Source: Utricularia gibba (Eukaryota; Streptophyta; Magnoliopsida; Lamiales; Lentibulariaceae). Taken from it: a stretch of DNA of 64,000 nt. The notes under the pieces are model-generated. The model made no database searches and was not told the DNA's origin. It saw nothing but the letters and a program-made list of their open reading frames with translations. The position numbers and the translations under genes were made by a program. The stretch lies in contig CM007989.1 in assembly GCA_002189035.1 (NCBI GenBank), positions 372,001 through 436,000 of the forward strand, written 5' to 3'. This document shows, piece after piece, positions 464 to 60,192 of this stretch (positions are counted from its first letter, which is position 1; every line of letters starts with the position of its first letter).

Positions 464-1125
464 TCATCCCCTGTTTATCAAATATTCGTCAACATTTGCA
501 TCATCAGAACCCAACAGATCCTTTCCCTTGACACAGGAAACCATACACTTGCCACTAAATTCACCCCATGATTTGTTAAATCCGAGAATTGCATTACGAT
601 GACTTGCCCCATTCACAAAACAAACCCCAGAAATCAACCTAAAAGCCTCCTTCCAATCCTCAATTCCCAAATCCAACACACCCAACTGAACCAGGAAGTC
701 CTAAATGCAGGGGAGCACTTCTGCTTCGCAAAAAGCTCGCATTTTTCCTTTGCGGATGCGAAACACGCTTCCATTTCAACCGCCTCGCACTTGGCCCTTT
801 CAACTAAATCCTGTTTAGAAAAAATACCGAAAAAAGACTTCCACCAAGGAGGTTTGCATTTCTCTGAAGCGGATACGGAACAACCAATTCGAGCGCCCGA
901 TTCGCACTGCGAGATGATCTGGGCTTTGCAGCGACCGTAGGCTTCAACCCAGTCCCGTGGGCTCTTGAAAGCAAGACGATACGGACCCGTTGAGGAATTC
1001 TCTGGTTTGCATTCCTTGATCACCACTCGCAGAAGGGGAATTGGGCGCGGAAATTGGATTAGGGTCTTCTCCGCGGAATACTCGTCAGAGTCTAGAGGCG
1101 TGAGCGGCCGCGTGCTGCCGCCCAT
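464..1125 (-). CDS. Conserved plant Cys-rich protein of unknown function, one apparent frameshift
   Basis: The function is not recognised. An ATG at 1125 opens a frame whose middle part is rich in regularly spaced Cys and charged residues (motifs SPRDWVEAYGRCKAQI, EKCKPPWW, ERAKCEAVEMEACF, AKEKCELFAKQKC). This looks like a conserved small soluble or intermembrane-space type protein rather than random sequence. The frame drifts after SPAFR near 701. The neighbouring minus frame continues as DFLVQLGVLDLGIEDWKEAF and runs to a stop at 464. Restoring one base in the GG run near 700 joins both halves into 220 residues. No intron can explain the join, because the only upstream GT would give an intron of about 33 bp. 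I infer a base-calling deletion or a true frameshift. If the join is wrong, the protein ends at 634 with 163 residues. Confidence 0.6.
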
Positions 1126-1342
1126 GTCAGTGTGGCGCCTGAAACCCCCTTCGACTCGACGCGTCTATCGTTCGTTAAATCGTTGTTGAACAGTGTACAC
1201 GTGGTATCCAATTTTTTAATAATTTAAAACATTGTTATATTTATTATTGTTTTAATTTAATCATGCGTCATCACATACGTCATTAGTAATCTTCAGCTTT
1301 CCACACACAACCGTTGACCGACAGACAACGCGCGCGTTGACT

Positions 1343-2106
1343 TCAGTGGGACGAGGAAGACGAAGTGGAGGCCAGCAGCATCATTCGCACAAATTCCTCG
1401 AAACTCACCGAACCGTCGCCGTCGACGTCGGCTTCTCTAATCATCTGCTCCGCTTCTTCAAGCGTTAACCGCTCTCCCATATTCATCATCACGCTCATCA
1501 ACTGCACGAAAGAAGCAGAAAGCACTTGGCAGCTGAGCATGAAAATCCGATAAACAGACGATTACAGATGTTTCTTGAGCAGGAAACTTGCCTCGACGGC
1601 CGATATGTATCCATCTTGGTCCCGATCGAAGACCTTGAAGGCTTCTTTGAACTCTTCCACCATATCGTCCTGTCAAGGGAGACATGAGAATGCGATGGAG
1701 TTCAGTCTGTGCAGTCAAACCCATACTGCAACTCTAATGAACGAACGGCGGAGGTGGAATTTTGGGAAGACGATGGCATGATGAAACTACCTTGTTCATC
1801 CTCATCATGATGCCCACGAACTCGGGGAAATATATCCTGCCATCCCCATCAGGATCCACCACTCTGAACATCTCTTGCACCTCTTCTGTCGTGGGATGCT
1901 CCCTCAACGCGAGGATCACCGACGCCAACTCCTCCGTCGTGATCGCTCCTGCAGTAAGCATACCCAATCCTCTTATACTCGTTCTTCCCCACAACAATAA
2001 ACAAAAAAGAAAACTGAGAACGGAACTCGCCATCGCAGTCCTTGTCGATCACGGCGAAAGCTTCTCGTAGATCGGCGATTTGTCTGTCCGTTAAAGCATC
2101 CGCCAT
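1343..2106 (-). CDS. Calmodulin-like protein with four EF-hands
   Basis: This is a Ca2+ sensor of the calmodulin/CML8-CML11 type, 156 residues, expected in cytosol or nucleus. Exons on the minus strand are 2106-2031, 1948-1791, 1669-1592 and 1501-1343. All four EF-hand loops are complete: [36 protein letters not shown] and [12 protein letters not shown], each with acidic residues at loop positions 1, 3, 5 and 12. The tail is Ser-rich (STSSSSSH) with no prenylation box. The first intron interrupts the Gly-26 codon, the position conserved in plant calmodulin genes. Introns 1 and 3 must use GC donors (TG|GCGAGT and GAG|GCAAGT) to keep the EF loops in frame; intron 2 is GT-AG. The start ATG at 2106 gives the family N-terminus [17 protein letters not shown]; an in-frame ATG at 2136 would add ten residues. 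It is transcribed away from the cyclophilin gene on the right. Confidence 0.93.
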
Positions 2107-3121
2107 GGCTGCCTGCGACAATGGTAAATTTCTCAAGCTTAAAGGTGCACAATAAATAAGGAGTTATGGTACCCAAATGGGGAGGCGCTTCATTCAAACC
2201 GCCGCTTGACTATTTCCTCTGGTGTTGAACGAGTTCATGGTGACGAGTCGACTGCTGACGCGATCAGTGGCCGAGGCACCAAGTCACGGCAAAATTGACT
2301 TTGAATATGATTGTGTGTTGGGCCTGGTGGTAAAATTGGGCCTTCGGCCCTTCTAGTAAACGTAAGCCCAATAAGAAAGGGCCCAGAAATAATCCATCGC
2401 AAGTTATTTGTAGCTAGCTGCAAGAGTGACAACAAAGGAGAAACTATTTTGCTTTTTTCCAGCCGCCAAGGGCTTCCAACTGTCCGTGAGATTGCGTCGC
2501 GTGAGCGGTGTCGCTCCAGGTAGGAAATGTTTTAGCAGGGTTCTAGGGTTTTTTCTTGGACAATATGGTTTTGACTTGGATGCTGTATGAAGCCTGTTGT
2601 CTGCCTCGAAACTATGAATCCGGTAGACTATGTTTCTTTCCCAGGGTTTCGTCTTTTATGGATGGGTTTTCGACTTACTCGTTTTGGATGCTTTTAAACT
2701 GCTTTTGATTTGGGACATTTTGCAGCACGTGCTTCAGAGAATTTTTTTACTGTTTTGACTTGGATGCTGTATGAAGCCTGTTGTCTGCTTCGAAACTATG
2801 AATCCGGTAGACTGTGTATCTTTCTCAGGGTTTCGTCTTTTATGGATGGGTTTTCGACTTACTCGTTTTGGATGCGTTTAAACTGCTTTTGATCTGGGAC
2901 ATTTTGCAGCACGTGCTTCAGAGAATTTTTTTACTGTTTTACGTAATGTAGTGACTACTAACTGAAATAAGATAACAGATCTTTCTCCAGTTATATTCTG
3001 TTCCGTGTTTTGTGTCCTTTGTTTGGCGAATTGGTCATGGTTTTGCCAACAAGATAGCTTGTTTCATGTACACTCTGTCCGTTGTGATGCCTGCTCAGTT
3101 CAATTTTTGTGAGCAGAAAAT
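2107..3121. promoter_or_regulatory. Divergent CML/CYP63 promoter region with site II cluster and CYP63 5' leader intron
   Basis: TGGGCC is present at 2319-2324 and 2337-2342, and the reverse forms AGCCCA and GGCCCA at 2365-2370 and 2380-2385. These are site II type elements typical of housekeeping promoters. An untranslated first exon of the cyclophilin gene probably ends at 2519 (CAG|GTAGGA), and the leader intron ends with CAG at 3114-3116, five bases before the ATG at 3122. The intron contains a tandem 184 bp duplication, listed separately. Confidence 0.6.
2568..2938 (+). repeat. Tandem duplication of a 184 bp unit in the CYP63 leader intron
   Basis: The segment starting GTTTTGACTTGGATGCTGTA at 2568 recurs at 2752, a 184 bp period, and the two copies match along their whole length with only a few substitutions (for example tgcctcg/tgcttcg and ttcccag/ttctcag). 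Copy 2 ends where the ACTGTTTT tail runs into unrelated sequence near 2940. The high identity points to a recent local duplication. It is non-coding. Confidence 0.92.
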
Positions 3122-6735: not shown

Positions 6736-7131
6736 GCAGTGTACGTGGACTGATGATGGCTATGATGATTTTCCTCTCCGAAGTTTGATTTCTAGATTTG
6801 CATGACAGTTGCGGATTTCTAGTATTCTATCAATCATAACAACCATCAAAACATTCGGTTTCAGTAACTCCTGCTTGGAAGTGATTCTTTTGTCCAGGAA
6901 GTCAGTAGAAGGCGATAAAGATAGTAATCATACATCAATTACCGACTGAACAAGCAATAAGACAGGTACGTAAACATCCAAATCAGGGAATGCTGATACC
7001 TCTACGATCTAAAAAGCATCTAACTTCTCAAACTAAACTAAATCAGAGTAACACAGATAGACTACGCAGTACAAATGCTCACCTAAGCGAACTGAAGCAA
7101 AGAAACTCAAATGGGAAATGTTTTCAAGAGG
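6736..7131. other. Convergent 3' region between CYP63 and H2A.Z
   Basis: Tail-to-tail spacer of about 400 bp. It should hold the 3' UTRs of both genes. No coding potential is recognised. Confidence 0.5.
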
Positions 7132-15600: not shown

Positions 15601-15714
15601 AGATAAATCAATTGGCAAGCTTGGACTTTCTTGCCCATCATCTGATTCAATCCCACCGGAATCTAATCATTTTTTGTTGTTGGGTTACTTGTGTGGATGT
15701 GATTCTCGCAGTCC
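12611..15714. other. Long AT-rich intergenic region with simple repeats and PPR upstream sequence
   Basis: About 3 kb with no convincing gene. From 12950 to 13720 the sequence is very AT-rich and resembles an eroded transposable element, listed separately. Short tandem ATTA/TTAA repeats occur near 14472-14490 and 14599-14620, and a (GT)n tract near 14857-14871. Site II motifs TGGGCC at 15075-15080 and 15094-15099 probably belong to the PPR gene promoter. Several 60-110 codon ORFs between 13820 and 14470 overlap each other in different frames and show no family signature. Confidence 0.5.
12950..13720. repeat. Possible degraded transposable element (AT-rich)
   Basis: The text around 13320 (TTGGCTCTAATATCAAATGT followed by AACA) and TGTAACGA motifs near 13110 and 13600 resemble the ends of plant LTR-type repeats that carry a variant of TGGCTCTGATACCA...TGTAACG. 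No reverse transcriptase, integrase or clear terminal repeats are seen, so this is only a suggestion. Confidence 0.25.
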
Positions 15715-17532
15715 ATGGTTTCCGGAGCTGTATCCCGCGATGCAGCTTCAAAGCTTGCGAGAACGGTTGAGCTGTTGCCTGTTTATCTAATCCCAAGTGA
15801 CTCTGCCCCCACAAAACTAACTGCTCACAGCGAGAGCAAGCTCCGGAAGAAGAAGTTCAAGAGAGAGGAGCCTTACAATGACGTCAACAGCGATGGTATG
15901 GAAAGACTTAATGAGATGCTACGATCCCAGCCTCTTCCTACCTCATCGTCGATCAATACTCTCCTGGGTAGCTTTGCCAAATCGAAGAATTACTCTGACT
16001 TGTTTGCTGCGTATGATAGAATGCTGGAAGTTAATTTTGTGCCTGATTACATTGGGTTGCATATTTTGCTCAACTGCTATTGCGAGCTGAAAAGGGTGGC
16101 TCTTGCGTTTGCGGTTGTTGGAGTGATTTTGAAAAGGGGCCATAAGCCAAATAATGTCACAATTGGATCTTTGATTAAAGGCTTATGTTTGGAAGGTAAA
16201 GCGGTTGATGCAGTTCAGCTGTTTAAGAAAATGCATACGATTGGATTATCTCCTAATGTTAACGTGTCGTCAATATTGATGAATGGCCTCTGCAGAACTG
16301 GGAATTCAGACATGGCACTTCTCTTGCATGAGGAAAATATGAATCAGGAAGGAGGACCTGGAGGTCGGTTCTATCCTAATAATATCTATTATGGTGGTTT
16401 CATTCATAACCTTTGTAAAGAGGGATCGGTTGCAAGGGCTAAGGAAATGTTTCTGGAAATGGAGAGTAAGAGAATTCCAGCTGATGTTGTTTGTTATGGA
16501 GCTCTGATTAATGGTTTTTGTAGAATGAATGAGTGGGAGCAGGCAATGGAGTTGTTTAACCAGATGGTGAACCGAGGCATCCGACCGAATGTTGTGACGT
16601 TTACTATTTTGATGGATTACTTATGCAAGATTGGAAAAACTAAGGAAGCAAGTGGATTATTGGATTTATTGATCAGAAAGGGCGGACGTCCTGATTCTAT
16701 CACTTTCAACACACTGATAGACGGCTACTGTTTGGAGGGCAGAACCAGAGATGCAAGGGAGCTGTTTTTGTCAATGGCTGCTAAGGGTTATGAGCGTAAT
16801 GTTCAGACCTACAACGTGTTGATAAATGGGTATTGCAAATGCCAAAGGATCGACAAGGCAAAGAATCTTTTGGAAGAAATGCTGCACAAGGAGATCAAGC
16901 CCACTGTTGTAACCTTCAACACTTTGTTAACAGGTTTGTTTGAAGGGGGCAAAGTTGAGGATGCACGTGATGTTTATTTGAATATGAAGGATCATGGCAT
17001 TGTTCCCAACTCTTTGACCTATAGCATCATGTTAGATGGTTTTTGCAAGAACAGCCGCCTGAAGGATGCAATGGACTTTTTCCAAACTCTTCAAGATTCA
17101 GGCTGTAAACTGGATACCACTCTTTGTAACTGCCTACTCGACGGACTGTGCAAGGCGGGTGAAATTGTTAAAGCCACTACAATGTTTGATAAGCTGCCGG
17201 AGATGGGTGTTGCAGCATGCCGATATACATACGGGATAATGATCAATGGGCTCTGCAAGGCTGGACAGCTGAAAGAAGCACATGATCTGTTCATACAAAT
17301 GGAAGCCAGAGGATGCCCTCCCGATGTAGTGGCCTTCAACACACTTATGCTGGGATTTCGAAATGCCGGCGATATTCCTAAAGTTATCGAGCTTCTGCGC
17401 ATGATGGCCGACAAAAAACATACACCAGATTCGTATACAATGAATATAGTGGTGGAGTTGATGCAGAAAGATGAAAACTGCTCGGAATTACTGGAGCTTA
17501 TTCCAAATTTTGTCACAGGGGGGAAAGGATGA
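15715..17532 (+). CDS. P-class pentatricopeptide repeat protein, RFL-like
   Basis: A single-exon 605-residue PPR protein. About fourteen tandem 35-residue P-type motifs run from near residue 80 to the C-terminus, with typical cores such as VVTFTILMDYLCKIGKTKEA, VQTYNVLINGYCKCQRIDKA and YTYGIMINGLCKAGQLKEA. There is no E/DYW extension, so it is not an editing deaminase. The motif style (NxLINGxCK) matches the Rf-like subgroup, whose members bind mitochondrial transcripts and act in RNA cleavage or stabilisation. The N-terminus (MVSGAVSRDAASKLARTVE) is moderately basic/Ser-rich and could be an organellar targeting peptide, but this is weak. It is convergent with INDH 224 bp downstream. Lack of introns is normal for this family. 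The exact RNA target cannot be read without aligning positions 5 and 35 of each repeat. Confidence 0.93.
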   Translation: MVSGAVSRDAASKLARTVELLPVYLIPSDSAPTKLTAHSESKLRKKKFKREEPYNDVNSDGMERLNEMLRSQPLPTSSSINTLLGSFAKSKNYSDLFAAYDRMLEVNFVPDYIGLHILLNCYCELKRVALAFAVVGVILKRGHKPNNVTIGSLIKGLCLEGKAVDAVQLFKKMHTIGLSPNVNVSSILMNGLCRTGNSDMALLLHEENMNQEGGPGGRFYPNNIYYGGFIHNLCKEGSVARAKEMFLEMESKRIPADVVCYGALINGFCRMNEWEQAMELFNQMVNRGIRPNVVTFTILMDYLCKIGKTKEASGLLDLLIRKGGRPDSITFNTLIDGYCLEGRTRDARELFLSMAAKGYERNVQTYNVLINGYCKCQRIDKAKNLLEEMLHKEIKPTVVTFNTLLTGLFEGGKVEDARDVYLNMKDHGIVPNSLTYSIMLDGFCKNSRLKDAMDFFQTLQDSGCKLDTTLCNCLLDGLCKAGEIVKATTMFDKLPEMGVAACRYTYGIMINGLCKAGQLKEAHDLFIQMEARGCPPDVVAFNTLMLGFRNAGDIPKVIELLRMMADKKHTPDSYTMNIVVELMQKDENCSELLELIPNFVTGGKG

Positions 17533-19261: not shown

Positions 19262-20296
19262 TTAGCCGCAACCCCTGCTCTCAGCGATCAACAAACGCCG
19301 GAGCCCTTCCGCGATCCAAAATCCAAAGCGCAGAAGTCCGATGCGACGGAGATTTATAAGTTCAACCGTGAGAACTGAGAAAGCACGAACTGACGCCGGC
19401 CCAATCGGACAATAAAGTACATTTACATTTGGGCCAACAGCCCATCTGCCATTGGGACCAAGATTCTGTCTTCATCATTTCCCAACGGATTGTCCGCTGC
19501 GTTGCCGTAGTGGTGGGGTTGAATTATTTTAGGTAATAATAAATTATTAATCTAAAAGAGAAGGAAATGAAATATGATTTAATTATAATCTAATTATAAA
19601 TTTTGAAATAATAATTTATTTTTTTATAATGAAAAACATAAATAAATTTTTTTAATAAAATAAAACGATTCAATCACGATTTAAATCATGTTCAAATCGT
19701 TCAAATTACAAACTATCGGTATAAAAGAAATTTGGTTTTTTAATTATTTAAAATATTTGTTAAATTATTCGAACTTTATTATCTAATTTAAAGATTCTGT
19801 TAATTATATGTAATTATGCGCGTACGGACATATGATATTTATATTTTATTAAAATTACGTGAAAGTGATAGCCGTGGGCTCTATAAAATAATGTAATATT
19901 CTGGATGGGGAAAAAAGAAGAGAAAATGAAATGAAACCTGCATGGGGATAGAGAGGAGAAGCTGCCATTCTTGAATCTCAGTTGTCTCCGACGGTCATTC
20001 AATTTCCTGGGGACCAACCCTGATTTGCATGATCCTAATTTATTGCCCACATTCCCCATTACATCTCCGGCGGCCGTTGATCTTTTTTTCATGATTGGCG
20101 AGGTACATTTTGGCTCCAAGAATTACCCCTTTTCGCGAATTGATTTTGGGGATTATTTAGCAAAACAGATTCAGGGCTTTTTTCGAATTGCTCGCCTAGT
20201 GTTTGTGAAAATGTGAATGAAGTTTCTCTTGATGTCGATCAAAACGTGCCTGTGTTTCCACAGCTAGAGTTTTTCTGTGATTGATGATCACGTACC
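19262..20296. promoter_or_regulatory. Divergent INDH / myosin-binding protein upstream region
   Basis: Site II elements at 19398-19403 (GGCCCA), 19430-19435 (TGGGCC) and 19439-19444 (AGCCCA) lie about 140-180 bp upstream of the INDH start. 19530-19860 is AT-rich without recognised features. The remaining 400 bp should contain the 5' UTR of the gene on the right. Confidence 0.55.
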
Positions 20297-22724
20297 ATGG
20301 CTAGGAAAGTATCATCTATGAGAGGAAAACCAAGGGGGGTTTTTGGCATTTTATCAGCTGCGACATGCGAATGGTTCCTAATGTTCATGCTGTTTATTGA
20401 TGGGGCGTTGTATTATTTCGCCATAAGATTTGCCGAGTTCTGTGAACTACAGACACCCTGTATGTTGTGCTCAAGGCTAGTGAAGACCAGGAATGGTTGT
20501 TGGTGGAGTTGGCTTTGTGATGATCACCGGGAAGAGTTATCTTCTTCTGTTTCTTGCCCCCTTCATTATAAATTTGCTGATGCGAGTGGGATGTGTGATG
20601 AATGTCTGACACCGATCGTGTCCAAGAGAAGCTCAAGCCCTCCTGAATCGTATGTACTTCTTGTGGGAAAATCATGGGTGGATGTTGATAAAAGTGCTGT
20701 ACAGACCTTGATGATGAACAAGAGCATACGTTTCTGCAGCTCAGGGCAGAGAGCATGTTGTTGTTGTGGGAAGAAAAGGATATTTAGAACAAGATCCAAT
20801 GCAGAAAAATTGCTTGAACTTGATACCATTGGCCTTGGGGCTTCCAAGGCTAATATGAAGCCACCTCTGCCTCGTGCTCCAGTTCGTAGTCGGTTCAGTC
20901 GAAGAGATGGAATTAGAAGGCCAAAGGATAAGTTCACAGGGCCAGTAAATCCACAGGATTCACTTTCTCATGCAGGGTACACGAAACTGAAAGTCTCATC
21001 AGATACTGAACCAGATTTCCTCTACTCAGAGGAAGAGGGGGCTCGGAGTAGAGACTTTTGTCACAAAAACTTCAGCGAAGAAGCCAAGAATATGACAAAA
21101 AGAGCACTAGAGAAGTTGCCAGTAGCAAACAATGATACTCGTGATCATGAAGCGATACCACCACCACTGCTTCTTGATCAACCTAATCTTCATGTATTGA
21201 CCGAGGCAAAGAATGAAAAATGCCTTTCATTTAACAGCACCATGGAGCAAATTTTTGTAAACTTCAAATGGGAAGATTTCACCAGTGAGGCAGCTGATCT
21301 CATTTCTTTGGTCGATAGCTCACATCAACCGGAGGTTGAACAAACATCGTCTGGTGCTATGCCAGATACTTGTATCCCTCAAGTTCATGCCATTTCTATA
21401 CTTTCTGAATTCCTTTCTCTCTGTGCAACCCCAAAAAAGAGTAGGTCCAGTTACTCATATACGTCGGTTTATCAAGGATGTTTTTTTTCTAATATGGTGT
21501 AGCTCCTTTGATGCAGATGACTCAGATGCAGCTGCATCTAGTAACTTAGACGCTGCTACGGGTGATTCCTCGCAGTTGAATGACTCCTTTGATGCAGATG
21601 ACTCAGATGCAGCTGCATCTAGTAACTTAGACGCTGCTACGGGTGATTCCTCGCAGTTGAATGATGTGAAGCACATGGCTATGGATTCTCAGGTGATCAA
21701 TGCCTCTGATTCTGATAACCCTGGAAATAGTTCGAACTCCACATTGGATTCGACGGCTTGTGATGCAGGTGTATCATGTAAGGATACTAGTAAGAAAGAT
21801 GAGGAGTTGAAAGAAGCTGAGGATCACAGTTCAAATATGCATCCTCTCACAACGTCTCTGAAAAATGATCCTGGAATTGAATCTTGGGATGGATTAACTT
21901 TGAGCCCTGTTGAGGGTGAAACTATCATCGATAGATTCAAGCGACAGATTGAGCATGACCAGAACTGCATGAATTCATTATACAAGGAACTTGAAGAAGA
22001 GCGAAACGCTGCAGCTATTGCAGCGAACCAAGCAATGGCAATGATAACAAGATTGCAGGAGGAGAAGGCAGGCCTTCAGATGGAGGCCCTGCAATACTTA
22101 CGAATGATGGAGGAACAGGCAGAGTACGATATGGAGGCACTGCAGAGAGCAAATGATCTGTTGGCTGAAAAAGAGAAGGAAATCCAAGACATGGAATATG
22201 AGTTAGAGTTCTACAGGAACAACCTTCCTGATGAACATGAAATTGCAAATATTGGCTTGGCCGCACAGACTGAAGGCATTCCTAGTACTTCCGGCAATCC
22301 CAAAGCTCCGGATTCAGCACCATCCAACTTCAATCAAAACCAAACTAGTTGTTCTATTTCAAGTTTGGAGGCAGAAAAGCAATCCATTTCCAAATCCTTG
22401 AACAACTTGGAGAGAATGATCCATCAAGCTTACCATGACGGAAACTTGAATATGGAGAATCCAACCAACGGCAATGAGAATGGGATGGTTGATGACGATC
22501 AAACAGACAGCTCTAATCAGCATAGCCACAGAGCAGCAGAAGCTGCACCATTTGAGAGGCAAATTGCAGAGCTTAGAGATCAGTTGGAAGCTCTTGAAAG
22601 TGACATAAGTTTACTGATGCACACCTGTGAATTGCTTCAAAACGGAGTAGAGGGATTAGAACTAGTTCAGGAAATAGCGCAGCATCTACAAGAGCTGAAG
22701 AAAATGGAAATCAAGAACCGATGA
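20297..22724 (+). CDS. DUF593 / GTD-binding myosin-binding protein
   Basis: A 789-residue membrane-anchored adaptor of the MyoB family, which recruits class XI myosins to vesicles through its DUF593 (GTD-binding) domain. Exons are 20297-21444 and 21503-22724, joined in phase 2. The N-terminus has a membrane segment (EWFLMFMLFIDGALYYFAI) followed by a Cys-rich patch (CELQTPCMLC, then CCCCGKK). The DUF593 coiled coil spans roughly residues 510-620 (FKRQIEHDQNCMNSLYKEL to EYELEFYRNNL). A second coiled coil lies at the C-terminus (FERQIAELRDQLEALESDI). Oddities: the intron is only 58 bp, and exon 2 opens with two identical 81 bp copies encoding a 27-residue acidic/Ala-rich unit (SFDADDSDAAASSNLDA...). 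The exon 1 frame would run on to a stop soon after the donor if the intron were retained. Confidence 0.9.
21504..21665 (+). repeat. Perfect in-frame tandem duplication, 2 x 81 bp, in the MyoB coding sequence
   Basis: The 81 bp block starting CTCCTTTGATGCAGATGACT at 21504 is repeated exactly at 21585, ending with GTTGAATGA at 21665. It keeps the reading frame and doubles a 27-residue acidic/Ala-rich linker. Complete identity implies a very recent event or an assembly artefact. Confidence 0.97.
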
Positions 22725-23399
22725 CGGCTAGAAGGAGCAATTGCAGGGAACCATGATGCCCTTTGCCTGTAAAAACTTGTTTTCAGCACAGAGGACCAAG
22801 AAGAAGAGCTTGATATTTTGAAAAGATACCAAATCGTGTAATACTGTTAACGACCGTTAAACTGAATTACCTCCCATAAATCGAATTACTAAAAGTGAAA
22901 AAAAAAAATTACCGCAAAAAGTGGCAGTAAAAAAAAAAGGAAAAAAAGAGGAAGAGGCGTAGAAGAAGAATATATCTGTTTCTCTATCTTCGTCTTCTTC
23001 TTATTCAGATCCGAAGCACATTGTAGGTCACATGATAAAGATTCACCAACTCGTATGTAGTTTCAGGTAATTTGCGTGGCGAATACCTGCGGGACATGCG
23101 ACTAATCTGCTCTTCACCGGTGCCCTTTCATTTTCCCCCTTTCTTTGTTGTTTGATTTCTGGGTGACGACGGACGCCGCTTGAAATAGAGGGTTTGTTTT
23201 TGTTTTAGCGTCTCGGTGACAGTTGACTGTGATTAAGGGCAGTGATGTGTGTGTTGATTGTTATTCAGTTTTTGCTTTTGTTTGGAATTTAATCTTTTAT
23301 GTCATGGGTTGTATTCTAAAGTGGCTTCGATGTGTTTTTAGGTGATTATTCGGTGTCTTTTCTGTTTCAAGGCTTTGGGAGTCTGCGCTATTTGCAGAA
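22725..23399 (+). promoter_or_regulatory. bHLH upstream region and probable leader intron
   Basis: After the MyoB 3' UTR a CT-rich segment (about 22975-23010) probably starts the bHLH transcript. A leader intron from CAG|GTAATT at 23067 to TTGCAG at 23397 would place the acceptor two bases before the ATG at 23400. Confidence 0.45.
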
Positions 23400-24828
23400 A
23401 TGGGGAGAAGCTTTGGACTACGGAGGAAGATAAGGCTATTTTAGAAAGTGTGTTGGGCCGTGAAACTTTAGAATACTTTGCCTGGTTGGCTTTGAATGAT
23501 GTGTTACCCGAATTCTCTGTTTCTGGAGGTTGTCTTGGAGTTCAGCAGGCTCTTGGCAATTTGGTCGATGGATCTGATTGGAATTATGTTATATATTGGC
23601 ATGTTGCGAAGTCAAGGTCCGGTAAATCAGCATTGGTATGGGGTGATGGCCATTTGAAAGATTCCCTAGAAGTTTCCAATGGAAGATGCAATGGTTTGGG
23701 GGTTGAATATACTACGGAAGGAGATTGTAGAAAGCAGGTGCTGCGAAAGATTCGTGCTTGCCTTGGTGGATCAGAGGATGATAATATTGCAACTAAGTTG
23801 GATCGAGTTTCTGATTTAGAAATGTTTTATCTGACATCGATGTGCTTTGTCTTTCCCTTTGATAAGCCTTCTGTGCCTTCTCAGTCCTTTAACTCTGGCA
23901 GGACAATATGGGTTTCAGGCAAGAAAGGCTGCTTAGAACGTTACCAAACGAGATCGCATTTAGCCGATATGGCTGGGTTTGAGACAGTGGTGTTCATCCC
24001 CTCTAAATCTGGAGTTGTGGAGTTGGGTTCTAGGAAGTCAATACTGGAAGATCACAACCTTATCAAATCTGCACAATCAGTAGTAGTAAAACTGAGTTCA
24101 GCAAGATCTTTGCCCAAGATTTTTGGGCAAGAACTCAGTCTTGGAGCCTCCCGGTCAGGACCAGTCAGCAGTACTTTTCCTCCAAAAGTGGAGGATGAAT
24201 ATGAACATGCAAATCCATCGAATGGACATCTAGTGGATGAAGGTGAAGTGAATAGGTTTCCACAGAGGAGTCATGTCCCTGTTGGGGGCATGAATCAAGG
24301 AAAGGAAGAAACTTTTGCCCTCTCTGATGACCAGAGGCCTCGGAAACGCGGTAGAAAGCCTGCAAATGGTAGAGACGAGCCACTGAATCATGTGGAGGCA
24401 GAGAGACAGCGACGGGAAAAGCTTAATCAGCGGTTTTATGCATTGAGAGCTGTAGTTCCCAACATCTCAAAGATGGACAAAGCCTCTCTTCTTGGTGATG
24501 CCATTGCCTATATCACAGATCTTCAAACAAAGATAAGGATCTTGGAAACAGAGAAGGGGATTTCGAACCCTTTGCATCAGCAATGTGTACCATCAGATAT
24601 AGATTTCCTGGGGAGGAGTGAAGATGCAGTTGTCAGGATAAGTTGCCCTCTGGATTCTCACCCTGCATCTGCAGTTGTGAGGACCTTGAGGGAGCATCAG
24701 TTGACAGCCCAGGAGTCATCCATCTCCGTAACAGAGACCGGTGAAGTTGTTCATACATTTTCTATTAAAACAGAAAGGGTGGCGCAGAAGAGTTGAAGGA
24801 TAAGTTATCTGCTGCTCTTTTGAAATGA
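23400..24828 (+). CDS. bHLH transcription factor, bHLH3/JAM-like (MYC_N type), two apparent frameshifts
   Basis: A MYC-related bHLH repressor of the JAM/bHLH3-13-17 clade, nuclear, acting on jasmonate-responsive promoters. The bHLH-MYC_N domain (about residues 5-180, [23 protein letters not shown]) is followed by IFGQELSLG, then [11 protein letters not shown] and the bHLH ([38 protein letters not shown]), then an ACT-like C-terminus. The conserved start MGEKLW is out of frame here: the ATG at 23400 is followed by GGGG where GGGGG is needed. The family C-terminus [14 protein letters not shown] sits in the next frame after AGGG at 24776-24779. Adding one G at each place gives 476 residues ending at 24828. 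Without repair the open frame has no ATG near the start and stops at 24796. Confidence 0.9.
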
Positions 24829-26181: not shown

Positions 26182-28388
26182 TCAATTCACTGTTTTCAGA
26201 GGATCACGTTGGGGGCTCTCTGGGGCTCCGGTGTCTTCGTCTTGCGGCAAAGCTTGCATGAGGGTTTCAGCAACTGCTGCACTGGCCTTCTCCTTTAGGA
26301 GCTCCAGAACAGACACGGCATCCTTCAGTTCATCCTCTGCGCTTGCACCGTGGCCTTCGTAGGCCTCCACTACCTTCTCCTGAAAACTGAGCGCCAGGGG
26401 GTAGCTGGAATATGGAAAGAAAAATGGGTTGGAAACTAGTGATGGATTCCATTTGCAACCTAAATGCAATGGTAAACAGCAACCCATATAGAAGAAACGA
26501 TTCCCCTGTCGCCGGAATTCTATGCTAACACAAAAGAGGAACCTAAACAGAGCAGACGTTGAACCTAAGCCACCAAGAATTGTATTTAAGCATGCAAGAC
26601 CTTCATTTTACTGGCATGTTCGAGGACGAGGGTGCATTTGTGAACGTAAAACTAATTGAAAAGCAGCAGTTTTTATGGTCATTTCTTGTACCTTCCCATG
26701 GATGCGTAGGCTTTGGAAAGATTCTGGCAAGCTTCTATTGAGTCTACATGGTGAGGACCAAGAGAGACATCCATGATCTCTTTGGCATAAGCAAATACCT
26801 GTGCGGCTGACTGCGGTCTGCCTAATTCTAAATATGCAGCTCCTAAGTTATTGTAAACATAACCAACTCCATAATGGTTTGATCCGAAACTCTCCTTCAA
26901 TCTTTCAGCAGCATCTTCCAGATATGGAATTGCCTGATCCACCCTTCCAGTTAACAGAAGCAGCCAACCAACCCGGGCAGACACACTACCTACAGAATGC
27001 TGCTCTTGTGGAAGCTTATCCATCATCGATATTGCTCTCTTTAACAAAGATATAGCCGTTTCAAACTCATTCATCACTTCATATTGCATTGCAATTTCAG
27101 AATACGCTTCAGCAACGGAAAGAGGACAACTTCTCTGCTTACCAAGAATTTCACAGGCCATTTTTAAACATCCCTTGGCATCTGCAAACTTATCTTGACT
27201 GCAGAAAGCTTTTGCCATGGAAGTAAGTATCAATGCTCGATCCTCACTATCCTTATCCGTCTGCTGTAGAACACCCTTTAAAGCATCGATTGCTTCATCA
27301 TATCTCCCCAAAGCAATCTGCATATTTGCAGCATCAATTTCTGCACGAAGCAAATCAGGGCTACAACCCCATTTCTTCATTATCTTCTGTGATAACTGGT
27401 TCTGCTCTAACGCCTTCCCATGCTCTTCTAATCCACTATAAATGACTCCAAGAAGCTTCCTATCATATGCAACCTCCACTGAGTTATTACCTAAATGTGC
27501 TGTATGTATCTCTAAAGCCTTCAAACAGTGAACCAAAGCTTCGTTGAAATTTAAAACTGCAACATAAGCTTCTGCAACATCCCTGTTCGCTTTCCCAAGT
27601 TCTCTACTGCCTTCCTCCAAGCTCTTCTCTTTGATTTCCAAAGCTTTCTTAAGATGAAACAAAGCGTCTTCTCTCCTCCCAATAGCCGTCTTTACATTGA
27701 ACAATTCCAACTGAACAGCATGCAAAATTGGCAAAATTTCATCAGAAGCGCATGAACTCTCCATTTCCAATTTGCTTAGCACCCTATTGGCCTTATTCAA
27801 GTAACCTAGACTATCACTAAATTTTTTTAACTTAAAACAACAAGAGCCTAATAGCTGCAAAGCCATAGCTACCGGCAAAGAAAATTTGCTGCTGCCATCA
27901 GGATCGTCGCAACCACCCAATATTCTAAAAGCTCTTTGCGCAAAAGACAGAGTCTTTTCATGGTCCTCACTCTCACGGTCAAGCATGAGACCAACTTTCA
28001 AACAGGCCATGCCCAAATCCTTCTCTTCCACGGATAACTCCATTTCTTTAAATGCTCTAAGCATTTCATCAATTGTCTTGGCAGACTCAAAAGCCTCTTC
28101 AAGGGCGGATCTTTCTTTGATTTTTCTTTGTCTAGATGAAATCTGAGGTTCCCTATGGGCAACCGGGTCCGCAAGTGCGTGGAGACATCGATTTCCACAC
28201 TGAACCCGAGTCCAATTCATCACCGGGGAAGCGAAAAGTTCATTCCTGGGCAAGCGGTGGACATGGGATGTTGCAGCAGCTATAAAGAAGCAGTTTAAAT
28301 CGCTAGTAATTTCCCTCGGAAACAAAGGGACTGGGGTTTTACACCATGCCCTCTGAAAATGAAAGAAAAGCTTAGAAGACGTCCTCAT
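26182..28388 (-). CDS. TPR protein, kinesin light chain-related type, probably organellar
   Basis: A 639-residue tetratricopeptide protein. Exons are 28388-26692 and 26404-26182, joined in phase 2 (MG|SYPLALSFQEKVVEAY). Repeated TPR helices run from about residue 100 to 560, for example KFSDSLGYLNKANRVL, REDALFHLKKALEIKEKSL, NEALVHCLKALEIHTAHLG and GVGYVYNNLGAAYLELGRP. These resemble the kinesin light chain TPR pattern, although plant proteins of this group are not proven motor subunits. The N-terminus from the ATG at 28388 (MRTSSKLFFHFQRAWCK) is basic and hydroxylated with no acidic residues, suggesting a mitochondrial or plastid presequence. A longer frame begins with GTG and is not used. 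Three site II motifs lie upstream, consistent with an organellar or housekeeping role. Confidence 0.87.
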
Positions 28389-28852
28389 GATCCAGATTCC
28401 ACCTAACCAATGCAGAATTTCTGAGCGACGACGATTTTCAAGGCATACACCAGTCACCACTCATCCATTGGGTTAAACCCTAGCAAGAAAATCCTCCGCG
28501 TCAAAACCCAGGGAGCGTTTCCAATTTTCCATTTCCATCAAGAAGACGAGACGATTCAAGTGGGCCAGCTCACTTCAGAATTCCAGAGCTTGTAGGCCCA
28601 TTTTATTGCAACGAATTGGTGTGACTCCCCAAGGCCCAATTGATGTTAATTTAAAAACTTTTTTCTATTTAAATCCGAATTAAGCCCCAATTTTTTTAAA
28701 AAAAATTAGTGAATTTTAGCTATAAAAATAGTAATTCATTTAATTATAATAATTGAAATTCCAAGTATGAAAATAATATTTCGAGTAACGGAGGGAGGCG
28801 TTGCAATTTGCGTTGGTCCGTTACAGCGGGGGGCCGAGGCCTCGCTTACCGT
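28389..28852 (-). promoter_or_regulatory. Upstream region of the TPR gene with site II motifs
   Basis: TGGGCC at 28561-28566, and GGCCCA at 28595-28600 and 28633-28638. The rest (28650-28780) is AT-rich, adjacent to the 3' end of the GH9 gene. Confidence 0.5.
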
Positions 28853-30747
28853 TTACGGAACATCGCCGGAATCCAGTATACCTGTGGAGAGTTGTGCCAA
28901 AACTCCGACGAGAGGCGCATTGTTGGCTGTAGCGGGCTCAGCCTGCTGGTAATTATCTCTGGCATCGGAGTAATAATCGGCCTGATCGGGTCCGCCGACG
29001 ACCGCCCCCACGAGGATGTTGGGGTTATCGGCGTCCCGGTGGAACCACTGGTCGTAGCCTCCGTTGCAGGACACGGGCGTGGGGTTTTTCTTGATCGAAA
29101 CGATCGATGCTCCTCTGTGGTGGACTCTTCTCGGATACCTCGCCCCGAATCCCACCATGTAGCTCATTCCCTTCGGGTTAGCTCCAAGGATGTAGTCAAT
29201 CTGCGTGCCACGCATCGTAGGTTATAGTTTATCGTCGATGTTCTGTTTTTATAATGTCGAACGTGGAGGGTGGATACCTGAGCTCGAGTTTCTGAGATCA
29301 GATCCGCCGGAGATGCAGTTCCGGCGGGGCACTGAATGAGTTTCCCGGAAGCATGGAGGACTTGGGCGTAGGTTGTTAGTAGGAAAGAAGCACTGGTGAC
29401 GTACTGAAGATTGTTCCATTGGTTGAAATACAGGAGCCCGGCGTTGCTCCTGGGCACGTTGCCATTTCCTTTCTGAATGCAGTTGCAGATGAACTGCTCG
29501 GCGTCGTTCCTGAACTCGCTCCAAATGCCATTCCCTTCAAGTCTTCCTTCTGCTACACCCTGCACCACCATAATTCAACCAAACAGTCAAACAACTGCTG
29601 AAATACAGAATCCAATGAGTAGTACCAGTGCGCATCAGAAACCAAGTTCAACAATCACGATTAACCTATGCTCCAATGGATAACCTCATCTTGCCTTGGC
29701 GATTAGAACTTGAGCGCCCGTGTACTTGTCATCCCAAGAAAACATAGTTCTGGTTCCACCAGTGCTCCCCATGCTTGAGATGAAGGCCCAGTACCTGCTG
29801 TCTTCGGTCGCCGTCGCTAGCCATGCCGCCGCCCAGATCAACTCGTCCTGAGAGTCTCATTAATGCACGCGTGTGGATTGACTTCAAGCATAAGTATCTC
29901 ACTTTGTTAAACAGTACCTGATAGCCGCTGCTTGAATAGAACTGTCCGGCAGATGGGATGCTGTTCTGGTAGAGGCCAGTATGTGTTCTTGCAAATTCAA
30001 ACAACTGACAAGAACATTCACTAGAATCATCTCTCTGAGTGAAGAAAAAAAATCATGATGTTCCTCATGTGTTTTACCTGCTCTGCATGGTTGAGAAGGG
30101 TGCCGGAATATGCAGGATTCGAGGTTCTGAACGCAAGGGAGGCTGCCGCCATCGCGGCGGCGGTCTCCCCAGCAAGATCTGACCCGGGATTCTGAGCGTC
30201 GATCCTGTAAGGAGTTCTCGGCGTGGTCATGTCTTCGGGCCTCTGCCAACACTGGTGATCGGAGTTACCATCTCCGACTTGGCCGTACAAAACCTCCGGC
30301 TCAGTGTGGGCCTTCAGCAAGTAATCCGTGCCCCACTTAATCGCCGACAGTGCGTTCCACAGCTCTCCTCTGTCCTCGAGCTGCGGCCCAAAGTCCAGGA
30401 CGCTCCAGGACAGCATCGTCACCGTGAAAGCCATCGGAAGCCCGAACTTCACATTGTCCCCGGCGTCGTAGTACCCTCCCACCAGATCAATCTGCGCATG
30501 CAAGAAAAGAAGCCCACCTCCGTCAAATGACTGTATTACAAGTGCCCGTGAAACACACCAAGCAGTAGTACCCCCGCGTCGTGGCCGTCATCAAGGGCCG
30601 AATCGGATCTCCATTGGACCGCTGGCCAGCCGGCAGCTTCCCGGACCTCTGCGCTTCGTAGAACAACAGAGATTTAGTTAGAGCTTCTCCATAGCGGTCC
30701 ATGGAGGCAGCTCCATGATGCACCAGAGCCGCAACACACAGAAACAT
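28853..30747 (-). CDS. Secreted GH9 endo-1,4-beta-glucanase (class B), one apparent frameshift
   Basis: A cell-wall endoglucanase of glycoside hydrolase family 9 acting on cellulose or xyloglucan-associated glucan in the apoplast. Six exons: 30747-30572, 30491-30078, 30004-29918, 29847-29695, 29559-29278 and 29200-28853. A signal peptide starts [15 protein letters not shown]. Catalytic and signature motifs are present: [19 protein letters not shown] with the active Asp, [19 protein letters not shown] with the catalytic His, and the C-terminal Asp/Glu motif [15 protein letters not shown]. There is no transmembrane anchor and no CBM49 tail, so class B. In exon 1 the family sequence [14 protein letters not shown] is one base out of frame near 30613, and adding one T restores 486 residues. 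Intron 4 uses a GC donor (AAG|GCAAGA). A TATA box lies near 30832-30838. Confidence 0.93.
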
Positions 30748-38024: not shown

Positions 38025-40838
38025 TTACCTGATGTAATCCTCAGCATCCAGCCATCTGAGAGTAAGCATGATTTTAACTAGGAAGCTCCGCAACCTGTAA
38101 TCAGCTACTGGGTTCCCAGCGATGTCTAATTGAATCAGATTCAAATCCTTGAACAGCAGATAAGCATCCCAATCCTCTTTCTGTGTGGCATCGCCATCAG
38201 CAAGTTCATCCTGTCGCCTCTCATTTTCGACTGCATGCGTAAGAGGGGAAGCGCACAAATGTCTCCTTGTGTCTATGGAGTGGGCGCCTATCTCATTGTG
38301 CGATATGTCTAATACTTCAAGAGCACTCAGCATTTTCAGGGGCTCCAGGGATGTAAAGCTTCTGATTCTGTTGTGGCCAAGTTTCAAGCAGGCAAGGAGT
38401 TGCAGTGCCTCCAATCCTGCATCGGAAATAATGAAAATGAAGAAATCAGTCTCATTGCCTTTCAATGTCGAATCGATCACAGTGCATGCTTTCCAAAAAC
38501 AAAGTGAGTGTATGATGTCTAGGAAAGGAATAAGAAGCCTGGCGATGGGATGCACACAGTAGATCTTCGAACAAACCTTCGATGTTGGAGAGGTTGTTGT
38601 GGCTGAGATCCAACATTTGAACCCACAAGAAACTCTCCATGAAACCAATTCGTGATATGGAGAGGCCATTCAGATTAAGAAACAAATAGCAGTTTGAAGT
38701 TGCTGAAGACATTTCTCGGTATTTGCCGCAGCGCTTGGCTAAAGCTTCTGGATCAGAAATCAACTGCAGGCCAACGAAGCGTTTCATGAAGGATGACGCA
38801 TAACAATGCAGAAATGCATACCGAAAGAACAAAGACCAGAAATCGTCATTGTGAAGAAAAAGGAGATTCACCTGCTTCAGTAAGGATAAGCTGCACATGT
38901 CCTCGTAATAACAAACATGAGCAGGGTCCATTTGCTTCAAGTCATCATAGAGTTTTAGAATGTCTTCGTATCGACAATCATCCACGCTGCGGGCCATCAG
39001 GAGTCTCGCAAGGGTCAGCTTTCCGATTTTACTAAATCCATAGAGAGAAACATTATACACAGATGAGTGAAATACATTAAGTCGGCTTCTCGGATGTCTC
39101 ATAACATGCCAGAAGAGTTGAACTTACCAGTCCATGGCTAACAGTAGCTCCTGGCAATAAGCAACTTCATTGGATATAATATCCATTCTCCAATCAGAAG
39201 CAGCTTTGTTGCCTCCTTTTGGGACTCCATCTTCATGGATCGTGGGAAGAAAGCTCCCTTGAGAACTTTCAGAATGAACCATAAAATTTTCCTCACTCCA
39301 GGATATTTTATGATGACCATCAACCTCAGAATGCACACCACCATCCGAAGATGCAGTTACAGTGAAAGATAAATGATAGCACTTACTAAAAAACTTTCCA
39401 TTCAAGGATGTAATGTACGGGGCTCCACCAATGGCAACACTAACAGAACAAGCGTCTAAGGAATCAGTGTTATCTGGAAATTCAATGTAGGCCATCCAGG
39501 CTTGGGAAAACCCATGTGGATTTGATGAAAGAGGCTTCCAGATAAAATCGGCAAGAGTATGATGCTGACATTCAACTATTACAGTTGAGGAGCTTATGCC
39601 ACAAACTGGCTCACTGAAATATAAGACCAGAGGAAATACTCTTCTTTTAGACTGGAAACGCACTTCAGGAAATGGTTCTGGGTCACTTGAGTAAGCTCCC
39701 AGCGATAAATTCAAATTTGAGCCCTGGGGAGGCCATGAAGAAATAAGCGCAGGCTCATACTCCAGAGTTTTCTCCAGAAGCCAACGATGATAAAACCAAC
39801 CACTTTGATCATCAGGGTCTGTAAAAAGAGCACTGCGTACAAACTCATATTCGTCCTTCAAAACAATCTCTTCAGCATCATATCCTGTCACTTTTTTCTC
39901 CATTAACTTATGAAGAAGCACGCTGCCAGAGGAAAGAATCTCGATCAGAAACTAATACAAATCAAATTGAAACCTAAAACCATAGGCAAACCTTCTATAA
40001 TGCCAAGCAGAATAATTACTGAAATTCTCTTCTATGATCCCAGTTGTGTACTTCAATTCTTCCTCATCGGGCATCTTCCTTAATGATGCTATGAATCTAC
40101 ATAGAAATAAAGAAGGTAAACATTAATGGAGCAGCAACTAATAAGTTGAAATACATTCGACATCAGGCCTCTTGCGATCACCTCCTGTAGTTCCACATGT
40201 GAAAATTCCTGGAGTCCGACTTGCAGAACATATCCAGAAGCCGCAATTCCCTATCAGTTGATAAGTGGTCCTTGCTTAGGACCCATTTCCGGTGGTGCCA
40301 TGCCCGTATGACTTATAATTTCTACGCAAGGCATTCTCCACCTGAATATAAATCCAGAAACTAAAAAGACCATCAACAATATATAGTTAACATCAGCAAG
40401 CAAGCAAGTGTGTTACGGTTAAACATGAATGCAAAAGGGATTGATGTAAAACTTACAACTTTCAATTCGTCAGTAAGTATCGACTGTATGGCATCGGAAT
40501 CATCTCTATTTCCAGAGGACTGATCTATATGAAACTGCACTGCACGCTTCCGGTAATTCCATCCCGTATAATGCTCCGGATTGTATTCCAACATAGTCGC
40601 GCTGATTTCCATAGCTTCTTTCGTGTATCTGCATCGAAATTCATAAAAAAAAAAAATCATAAAACCCGAATTCCCAAAACTTGAGTGTCAATCAAGAAAC
40701 ACCGATATATGAGATGACACACATTTTATTGTGATGAAAGTTAAGCACTTGCGCATGGAGATCTCGAAGCTTAGCGGCTTTAAGAGAAGAAGCCACCTGA
40801 TCTTCATCGGTTGGGGGTTTCCGAGGTCTTCCGTGCAT
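38025..40838 (-). CDS. RGTA: Rab geranylgeranyltransferase alpha subunit, one apparent frameshift
   Basis: Alpha subunit of Rab GGTase (geranylgeranyltransferase II), which with the beta subunit and REP prenylates Rab GTPases. Exons: 40838-40723, 40628-40457, 40341-40182, 40096-39992, 39922-39128, 39031-38872, 38763-38577 and 38416-38025. PPTA repeats are visible as [46 protein letters not shown] and [14 protein letters not shown] plant-type inserted domain and C-terminal leucine-rich repeats ([42 protein letters not shown]) follow. In exon 3 the frame breaks after SYG: the run CCC at 40303-40305 (GGG on the coding strand) needs one more base to give SYGAWHHRKW. With it the protein has 695 residues and ends at 38025. 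Confidence 0.93.
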
Positions 40839-49097: not shown

Positions 49098-50350
49098 TTA
49101 TTCCCCAATGGCGTTAACCTTGACAAGATGCAAGCTTTCTCCAATGCAAATGCCTGCATTGCCCTCCACGTTCAGTTTCATCCCAAGTCTTGATAGGAAT
49201 GCTGCAGAAAATGGAAGCCTCCCAGTTAATCTGTTGTTCTTCAGGTTGAGTTCATTCAGCTTCTCCAGAGTTTCGAATTCCTCAGGGATTGCACCTTCAA
49301 GGCTATTGTTTTCAAGCTCCAAGAAGCTTAAGTTTCTCAAACTTGAACCCATGGATTTTGGGATATTACCAACAAGCCCCATTGAGGACAACCCAAGTCC
49401 CTTGATTCCTCCGAGATTCTCCCATATTTCAGGAATCCTGCCTCCAACCAGATTGTTGCTCAAATACACCTCCTTCAAGGTGGGCATTTCAGACAAGAAC
49501 AAGGGAAAGCCAAACTGTCCAAAGTGATTGTGACTCAAATCTAAAAACTCTAGCTTTGTGAGATTCTTTAAGAACTCTGGCACTCTACCTGAGAACCCAT
49601 TGAAGCTCAGATCAAGCTTCAGCAGTTCACTGAGAGTCCCAACTGAATCTGGAACCTTTCCATGGAATGCATTGTGACGGAAGTCAAGAACTTTGAGTTT
49701 CTTCATGTCATCAAAAACGTTCATCTCCAATTCACCTTCAAAGTTGTTACCCGACAAGATAAGCTGCTCCAGATTCACCAACCCATGAAACTCACCCCAA
49801 GAAACACCATTTCCACTCAAAACCAGCTTTCTCAAGCTGCCCAAGTTACCGATTTTCCCTTCAATAGATCCAACAAGTTTCGGGTTACCCATAAAAACTA
49901 GCTCTTGTAACGCAGATGCTACCCTGTCGACAAATCCGGAAATGGGACTTCTTTCAAAGTGAAACATTTATAGAAAAATAACTTCCTGAGATAGGTAAAC
50001 GCCTTCAATAGCGAACCATCGAAGCTAGCGTTGAAATGGCACGCTGGGTTCGGCGAAAATTCAGAAACGTAACCGAAACTCAGCTCTGTAACATGTGTCT
50101 CCCCTGTTTCAAAAACGTCACAAACGACACCATGTGGAGCAGAGACGCAGAGATCGTCAGGAAACAGAGTTCTCCACTCAGTGCCGGCGCTTACAGCCTC
50201 CAACACCCTGTAAACGCCTTCTTGCTCAGCCGCTTGAAGCGGCTGAGACACAACACACCAACTTGAAACACAGAGCAACAACAGCAGAAAAGAAAACTCA
50301 AAACACGACATCGAATAATCAACACAAGACGACTCAATATCGGAGGTCAT
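49098..50350 (-). CDS. PII-2-like secreted leucine-rich repeat protein, one apparent frameshift
   Basis: A secreted or membrane-attached LRR protein of the PIRIFORMOSPORA INDICA-INSENSITIVE 2 / TOO MANY MOUTHS-like type without a kinase, 417 residues after repair. No intron is needed. A signal peptide lies in FEFSFLLLLLCVSSWCVVSQ; an internal ATG at 50311 gives a cleaner signal peptide than the first ATG at 50350. The N-terminal domain has AGTEWRTLFPDDLCVSAPHGVVCD. About ten LRRs follow (LGSLRKLVLSGNGVSWGEF, LSELLKLDLSFNGFSGRVP, LEFLDLSHNHFGQFGF). The frame breaks after FFYKCF near 49966-49968: adding one T in TTT joins it to ERSPISGFVDRVASALQELV. The C-terminus may be longer (see spacer entry). 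Confidence 0.88.
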
Positions 50351-56970: not shown

Positions 56971-57190
56971 AACATAGAATATACATGCAGTATAAGTGGG
57001 CCTAGCCCATTGGGCTAAAGAAAATCAGGTCCAATATCAGGATATAGGAAGGCCAGATGCCGTAAACAACCTAGTAAGACAGCAGTGTACGGACACGAAA
57101 CCTAGGAAACCAAGGGAACAGAAAGCTACACAAACAAAAGGAACTGCAGGAGCGGTAACTGCTAGCAATGTGTCGAACACCTTACGGGCA
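56971..57190. other. Short convergent spacer IAA10/11-like / MCTP
   Basis: About 220 bp between two convergent genes, presumed 3' UTR sequence. Confidence 0.4.
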
Positions 57191-60100
57191 TTACAGCATG
57201 CTGTCTGCTTTCGTCGGGAGTCGCTTGAAGAAGCTGACGGCGAACGATGGTAGCCGGTTCCGGAAGCGTGGCGGGCGGAGATAGAACGCCACCGACGACG
57301 CCACCACCCATCTGAAAGGAACCAAGTAGAAGCCGAAGGCAGCCACGAAACAAGCGATCACGAACAGGAAAGTAGCCCTAGGATCTCGCCAGCTGAGCAA
57401 CGCCTGAAATCTCTCCCCCTGGGTGGCCAAGTCCCCGACCACCGTCTGGATCCGTCCGGCGACGTTGCGTAGTCGATCGTATCTCATCCGGATGAGTTCT
57501 GCGCTCCGGCTGCTTGGAATATAGTCGAATTCCTCATCTAGTTCATCTGGATGCACGCTCTCGGCGTACGATAACCGCGTATCCATGTGCGGGGGTATCG
57601 TGGCCGGTGTCGGAATCGCCAGAGTCCCACGGCAGCCAATGTCAGTAGAGTACAGGGGATTATCAACTCCGGTGCCAAAACGAAGACTGTCAAGGCAGTG
57701 GAGAAGATTGTAGAGTAGAGAGGCTTTTGCCAGCTTCTCAGACCTTCAAGGAGCCTGCTCATGGCAACGAACCATCCAAGAACACTTGTGAGTCTGAGGA
57801 AATTGGCTTTACTTTTTCTCATACTCCACATATGTGAATCATGATCCAGCATGCACTCAACTACTTCTCTTCCCAGCGGCGGCTCCGCCCGGATAAGGCG
57901 GCTGGCGACTACACTCATTGCTTGATACCTCAGTGTGTCTAATTGGCTCACAGACAACGGCTGCACATAATGCATCTTGGGAAGAAGCGGCATAGTGTAC
58001 ATGTGAAGAAGATTGACCATATTTGTGCAGGAAAACCGAATTGCCAACTGAAGTTCACCCATTTTCTTGACTCCCGAAGGATGCAGCATCAGCAGAGGAT
58101 ATGAATGTGTGTAAACACGATCCGTTTCCAGGGTCGATAGCCTGATTCGAACCTTCCCAATTCGAGTATCCCTGCCAGAGTTTCCAGCCATGGTGTTTCT
58201 TTCAACACGGGAGTTGTCGAAGAGGCCGACTGTGATCACGGTGCAGGGATCAAAGACTTCCCAAGTGTACTGTTCATTCCATTTGGGGGATAAACTATCA
58301 ACCACAGTCCTGGTTCTGATCCACTTTTGACCATACTTGGCAACACAGTATGCATCAGTTGAGCCTCCGATGCCTTCTTTGATCTTCATTGGCATCAGAT
58401 TTGAGGCCCCTAGGATCCCAACTTCAAGAACTCCGATGTGTGGCTTCCACAGCTGCTTCGCTGTTGGGCGAGCGTCGCTGCTGTACATAGTGGCCTCATC
58501 GAGTACATGATACCCACCTTCCAAGGAGACACGCAGGTGGACGCGTGAAGCAAACCGGACAACAGCTTTCGACTGATTAGGAGCACTAAACTGAGTGTCA
58601 AGATTGAACCATCTTGACACAACAAGCTTGTCATCGAACCGCCTTTCAATGTTGGCTATGGGAAGAATCACTCTTCCTACTACCTCTTCTCTGTTGGGAG
58701 CCAACCGATCTTCAATGCTGATGAGCAGATAGTCCTCAAACGGTTCTGCAACAACGAACATCAGGTCTTCTTCCCACAAGGGATTTGACAGGCTCCTGTT
58801 TGGAGTAGGGGAAGCAATTCTTGTTCGAAGTAACTGATTTCCTACTTGAACTTTGGCAAAGAGCTCAGGATATCTAACCATGTTTACAGAGGATCCTCTC
58901 TCACGCAAGATAACATCTTGTGCTTCGATCACCCCAACTCTCAAGTACCACAGCCTTGGAGACAAGTATACTTTGGATTTAATGGAACAGAGGCCATCAA
59001 CATGTACATTTGCAGCCTTTGAGTGCCATGCTTCAGCGAAAGCCTCATCTGCCTGAGTGCCGAACCAGATAGCGACCATGACTTCCCCAGCTTTAGACCT
59101 GTCCCCTTTTCTATCATCCATTCTGTACCACTGGGGAGCTAACTGACTATCTGGGGAGCCCTACTGGGAACTTCATTCAAATCGAACCAAACCCGACCCA
59201 AGAACTCATCTTTGTGATTATTCTCCTTCACGAAGATTTCTACTGCAGAGGAGTGTATGCAATCCTTGGAAAAGGCGAAGACTTGGTCCCATACACCGTT
59301 TCCTAAAGGAACCCTCTTGGTAATCCCTTTGTAGTTGCCAAGTTTCACTTCAGCAATAACCTCCACATTTCCGCCGAAGACAGAAATGTCTTTAACTTTC
59401 ACAACCCTGACATAGAGATACTGCATCTGTTCAACGAGGTCATATGTGGAGCTTGTTTTATCTTTGCTCAAACCGCCGAGATGAGGACTGGTTTCCTTCA
59501 AAGTGTAGTCGCTTGGATGTCCGCCGCGAAAGGCGGCGACGCCACCCGGAGGGGGAGAACAGGGCCGGGAACTGCAGTAACAACGACAGGCTTTATATCA
59601 CCTACTGCAGGCTCAGCGGGTTTTACATGCCCCTGGTTCTTTAACCCCATTGACATTTTCCCAGTCTCTTGACCCAAGCCGAGACCCATCTGCTTAGAAA
59701 CCGCCATGTTCCCTTGCTGCTGAAGCTTCTTTGTTTTCTTGGAAGTTAATGCTCCATCTGCTCCATTGACGACCTGCTTCACAACCTCCTTAGCAGAAAG
59801 ATAGAGCTTTAAACTTATTTCCCCTCTCACGTGAGAAAAGAGGCTCCTTTTCTCAAGAGCGTAAAGCTGGGAGACTTCTTCTCCCTCCCTGGCGATGCTG
59901 GTCCCCGAAACACGAACCTTACCGAGAAAATTACGGCTGTTAGTTGACCTCCTCTCGTTGAAAACATTTACCTCAATGGTTCTGTAAGGGAGGTCAACGA
60001 CGTCGTTTACATGGAAAACCAGCTTCTCGTTCCACACTGGGTTAAGGTCTCTGTGCTTCACTTGGGTTCTTTGCCGTTGATTTTCAAACTCAACTTCTAC

Positions 60101-60192
60101 AAACGGCGAAGAGGAACCTTCCCATCTTTGGGCATAAGATTGTGCGCAGCGACAACCTCCACAACAAGCTTTTCTTTTCCGCCGTTATGCAT
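57191..60192 (-). CDS. Multiple C2 domain and transmembrane region protein (MCTP), four apparent frameshifts
   Basis: An intronless gene for an MCTP, an ER-plasma membrane tether often found at plasmodesmata (QUIRKY/FTIP family). The reading begins at the ATG at 60192 (MHNGGKEKLVVEVVAAHNLM). Four C2 domains follow: VKHRDLNPVWNEKLVFHV; then YLYVRVVKVKDISVFGG; then LRVGVIEAQDVILRERG; then LEVGILGASNLMPMK with AKYGQKWIRTRTVVDSLSPK. The C-terminal PRT_C domain has membrane segments (VLGWFVAMS.., ATFLFVIACFVAAFGFYLV) and ends LPTKADSML. Four single missing bases break the frame: near 60121-60123, 59565, 59153-59156 and 57589-57593. Adding one base at each gives exactly 1002 codons. Between C2A and C2B lies a Pro-rich linker running into the family motif DYTLKETSPHLGG. 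Confidence 0.95.

Follow-up and report, generated by a model that had tools for sequence, protein, structure and literature searches.

Single-base losses in G and C runs of the Utricularia gibba assembly point to consensus errors rather than gene decay

Results

Reading-frame breaks in the window

The window, by which we mean the whole stretch of 64,000 nucleotides analysed here, carries genes for a Cys-rich protein, a bHLH-MYC protein, a GH9 endoglucanase, the Rab geranylgeranyltransferase alpha chain (RGTA), a PII-2-like LRR protein and an MCTP. An earlier note had proposed that all six lose their frame at single-base gaps in short homopolymers and had listed ten such positions. We compared the genes with material independent of the window, namely paralogs elsewhere in the same genome and the protein sequences of solved structures (PDB), using a protein-to-DNA aligner that was written for the purpose and penalises one-base losses and gains equally. 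Frame-aware alignment to these relatives shows that the MCTP, LRR, GH9, RGTA and bHLH genes have lost single bases, with no intron involved, and nine of the ten listed sites are frame breaks backed by relatives. Two of the listed positions have to be moved (49967 and 59565, see below).

The MCTP gene (57193-60184, minus strand) was aligned over its full length to its intact paralog L013. It contains exactly four breaks, at 60119, 59520, 59155 and 57596 in the coordinates of the aligner, all of which are losses and none a gain. Three of them lie in conserved sequence, with no residues missing around them and no room for an intron. On the coding strand these correspond to a G3 run in the motif MPKDG-GSSSPFVE (60121-60123) and a C4 run in SRA-PDSQLAPQWY (59153-59156), both located by frame-aware alignment to paralogs, and to a C5 run in RPR-PPHMDTRL (57591-57595), located by alignment to L010, L011 and L013. 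The fourth break is also real. It had been listed at 59565, but it lies in an unconserved linker, where the overlap of two open frames and the L013 alignment bound its location to 59498-59597. Six of ten MCTP paralogs are without any break.

In the LRR gene, frame-aware alignment to an intact paralog of 78% identity (L059) shows two losses on the minus strand. One, at about 49920 (49915-49930), replaces the listed 49967, which is the opening of the next reading frame and not the break itself. The other, in a G4 run of the coding strand at about 49105 (49100-49110), had been overlooked, so that the original list is incomplete.

The loss in the first exon of the GH9 gene falls in a 13-residue stretch (30613-30622, minus strand). 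Paralog L006 continues in one frame across this break (SNQRIQWRSHSALTDG), and the joined sequence aligns to GH9 endoglucanases in the PDB (E=9.5e-27). The RGTA loss (40303-40305, minus strand) is found in the motif KSYGAWHHRKW; once joined, the sequence matches RabGGTase alpha chains in the PDB (phmmer, E=1.8e-17) without a gap at the break, which lies inside SYGxWHHRxW. The bHLH gene, which carries MYC_N and HLH domains (Pfam), is affected at both ends, each time in a G run on the plus strand. Its ORF (23342-24796) opens without an in-frame ATG. Adding one base to the run at the start codon (23402-23405) yields an N terminus of 14 residues that resembles paralog L053 (MGFVGWNNEDSAV). Near the C terminus (24777-24779) the tail in the next frame, KTE followed by 16 residues, corresponds to the tails of the paralogs (KSQGSERLTKEKLIESMSL). 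Both ends agree with L053 and L054 only once one base is allowed for.

The Cys-rich gene (484-1164, minus strand) provides the weakest case of the set. A codon-usage Viterbi model, with intact genes of this genome as its training set, switches frame at 697/698, close to the listed 700 and in the direction of a loss, and codon usage is what this site rests on. The gene has neither a paralog in its own genome nor a Pfam match, and it possibly encodes a lineage-specific protein.

The broken genes had been described as adjacent, but two intact genes sit between them. A PPR gene (15703-17532, plus strand) with PPR domains has an open frame of 609 aa, and a TPR gene (26679-28460, minus strand) with TPR domains one of 593 aa; both serve as controls. 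We also considered the frame changes at 21371, 38478 and 62558 as additional breaks. They have plausible GT-AG junctions, and therefore not all frame changes of the window were read as errors; their absence from the original list was correct. In the regions concerned, which are zein-binding (20288-22724), RGTA C-terminal (38025-38669) and ATXN10-like (61825-63448), the frame changes have the look of ordinary short introns. Long runs do occur in the assembly: the window itself has G runs with 10 and 13 bases and a 17-base T run.

Losses across the assembly

We then searched the whole assembly (100,091,633 bases in 516 contigs). The GRAS family was chosen as the sample, since its domain is usually encoded without introns, and nearly all broken and intact copies were taken. 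There are 25 losses in 17 of the 39 copies (57.9 kb), a count of copies that includes L033, a redundant copy of L034. The affected copies are found on 14 contigs, so the losses are dispersed over the assembly rather than confined to one locus. Some copies have two or three breaks. The MCTP genes contribute seven further losses in 28.5 kb, four of which are those in the window. KCS and UDP-glucosyltransferase families were searched as extra samples, and neither was counted; conserved introns make the KCS table ambiguous.

The total thus amounts to 32 losses, those in L041, L042, L075 and, near the N terminus, L010 resting on weakly conserved sequence, versus six apparent gains. At most one of these gains is independent: those in L038, L051 and L075 mirror a loss in the reference gene, the two in L014 lie in a linker and cancel to a net loss, and the one in L069, in a divergent stretch, is unexplained. 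Three DELLA-type copies on different contigs (L048, L049 and L050 on C375, C142 and C2) share a site of damage: each has lost one base at or next to the conserved C-rich stretch that follows the WPALLQALA motif.

The losses are tied to G/C runs. For 78% of the 32, a G/C run of at least 3 bases is found no more than 9 bases away, compared to 30% of background codon positions (p=3e-8); a run of at least 4 is near 47% of them, compared to 8% of the background. About a fifth have no G/C run of at least 3 nearby, and A/T runs are not enriched near losses (p=0.86). For inferred true G/C lengths of 3, 4, 5, 6 and 7 the loss rates are 0.2, 2.1, 10, 36 and 100% (4/4), with small numbers at lengths 6 and 7 (Fisher p=1e-5 for lengths of at least 5); each loss was assigned to the longest nearby run, which was counted one base longer, so that the association is somewhat inflated. 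At A/T runs the rate is 0 to 1% up to length 6. The earlier claim that the changes are losses, mostly in G/C runs, is borne out genome-wide, with losses greatly outnumbering gains. The effect is particular to G/C runs and is not limited to the window, and some of the runs are only 2-3 bases long.

Contigs that represent one locus allow a direct comparison. A GRAS locus is present on both C316 and C412; in an alignment of 4,128 bases C316 is short of bases at ten places and C412 at none, and there is one substitution. A second stretch shared by the two contigs was dropped because it is repeat-like and not alignable as one locus. Likewise, one sequence recurs at the end of C414, at the start of C416 and within C422 (L071, C414:3443900-3445080; L079, C416:1-920; and L042 on C422), and the assembly is therefore partly redundant. 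Relative to C422, bases are missing at three places and at one place, respectively, and none are missing in C422. Taken together, the redundant contigs show 14 deletions, no insertions and 1-3 substitutions; they are either small or the ends of contigs, places of probably low coverage. Between real alleles one would expect mostly substitutions, and differences in either direction. No other observation points as directly as these contigs to a loss of bases by the assembly process itself.

Finally, we looked for signs of relaxed selection. The restored frames, 86 kb in all, are free of stop codons; the aligner penalises stops, yet a single stop costs less than two shifts around it. On either side of the breaks, the LRR and MCTP genes differ from their paralogs preferentially at third codon positions. 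For the LRR gene and L059, third positions carry 43 substitutions before the break, versus 15 and 12 at the other two, and 72 after it, versus 41 and 27. Since decaying genes are expected to show neither stop-free frames nor a third-position bias, decay is disfavoured: both the nonsense changes and the relaxed selection that mark pseudogenes are missing from these genes.

Discussion

The frame breaks are almost certainly consensus errors of a long-read-only assembly, in which G/C homopolymers have lost one base, and do not reflect gene decay. According to this reading of the sequence, one base would be dropped from a G or C homopolymer during base calling and consensus, with a probability that would climb steeply with the length of the run, and the genes most likely remain unbroken in the plant. 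We infer that the platform was PacBio CLR with HGAP/Quiver; the chemistry or the consensus caller may be behind the sparing of A/T runs. The changes have the marks of homopolymer errors, in that they are mostly single-base deletions, become more frequent with run length and leave contigs of one locus with runs of different length. The systematic under-calling of homopolymers that the earlier note preferred over six decayed genes is thus supported by the genome-wide bias towards losses, the dependence on G/C runs, the redundant contigs and the signal of selection.

The most serious competitor is true pseudogenization: the genes would be decaying, in a plant lineage whose loss of genes following genome duplication is known. 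The many duplicated genes of the genome and the few GRAS copies with two or three breaks would fit such a scenario, which we nevertheless consider very improbable. It does not account for the stop-free 86 kb, the restriction to losses, the dependence on G/C runs or the third-position bias that persists across breaks. Moreover, it would have to include RGTA, an enzyme of the essential type, and would need more than 40% of the GRAS genes to be dead. Plant pseudogenes that arise after whole-genome duplication also present frameshifts in otherwise recognisable genes, but here there are no nonsense changes and almost no gains, and coding constraint is kept on both sides of the break.

Even less credit can be given to the idea that real introns or exon boundaries were mistaken for breaks. 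Three other frame changes of the window do show GT-AG junctions, but at the conserved sites the protein alignment simply runs on, with at most one codon affected and no room for an intron; the Cys-rich site, whose gene has no relatives, lies outside this comparison. Length-dependent slippage in G/C runs occurs in living cells too, which lends some plausibility to the view that real alleles or somatic changes underlie the deletions and are tolerated by means of transcriptional slippage or ribosomal frameshifting. Against it stand the near absence of gains, the fact that paralogs of one family are hit at different sites, and the redundant contigs of one locus, which differ in the same one-sided way. 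A programmed frameshift would be expected at a site conserved among relatives, whereas at the conserved broken sites a single frame is kept in the MCTP paralogs and in that of the LRR gene. We hold this explanation to be just as improbable as mistaken introns, and it would be equally surprising if the plant truly had widespread one-base G/C-run deletions in functional genes, with full-length proteins made through slippage or recoding.

Consensus error is in line with what is known of such assemblies. The U. gibba assembly was produced by HGAP from PacBio reads and has a contig N50 of 3.4 Mb (PMC5793159); a stated figure for its base accuracy was not found in the literature searched. Residual homopolymer-length errors are known in long-read-only assemblies, where they fragment reading frames and can be removed with short reads (PMC8812927, PMC12007338). 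The breaks described here are of the same kind, single-base errors of homopolymer length that fragment reading frames, but they are to a strong degree confined to losses in G/C runs, with runs of 3-5 bases already affected, and they occur in a plant assembly. In the PacBio assembly of Sciara coprophila, errors likewise remained after Quiver and were fixed by Illumina polishing, with Pilon correcting 60-90 errors per Mb genome-wide (PMC8419958). A point against our reading is that the figure here is several-fold higher: GRAS coding sequence, a sample rich in G/C runs, has about 430 losses per Mb (about 0.4 per kb).

Published claims that were checked on cDNA are unaffected. The RNase III genes were searched because the truncated DCL3 of U. 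gibba might have been such an error; this candidate was dropped, since the truncation has already been tested and confirmed by 5' RACE (PMC8333044). The breaks in L048, L049 and L050 may lead automatic annotation to report this plant as lacking intact DELLA proteins. The artefact is of a known kind and tells nothing new about the biology of the plant; it is a data-quality warning to users of the assembly. With more than 40% of the sampled GRAS copies broken, gene-loss, pseudogene and gene-family counts that are based on the assembly alone are unreliable until it has been polished with short reads.
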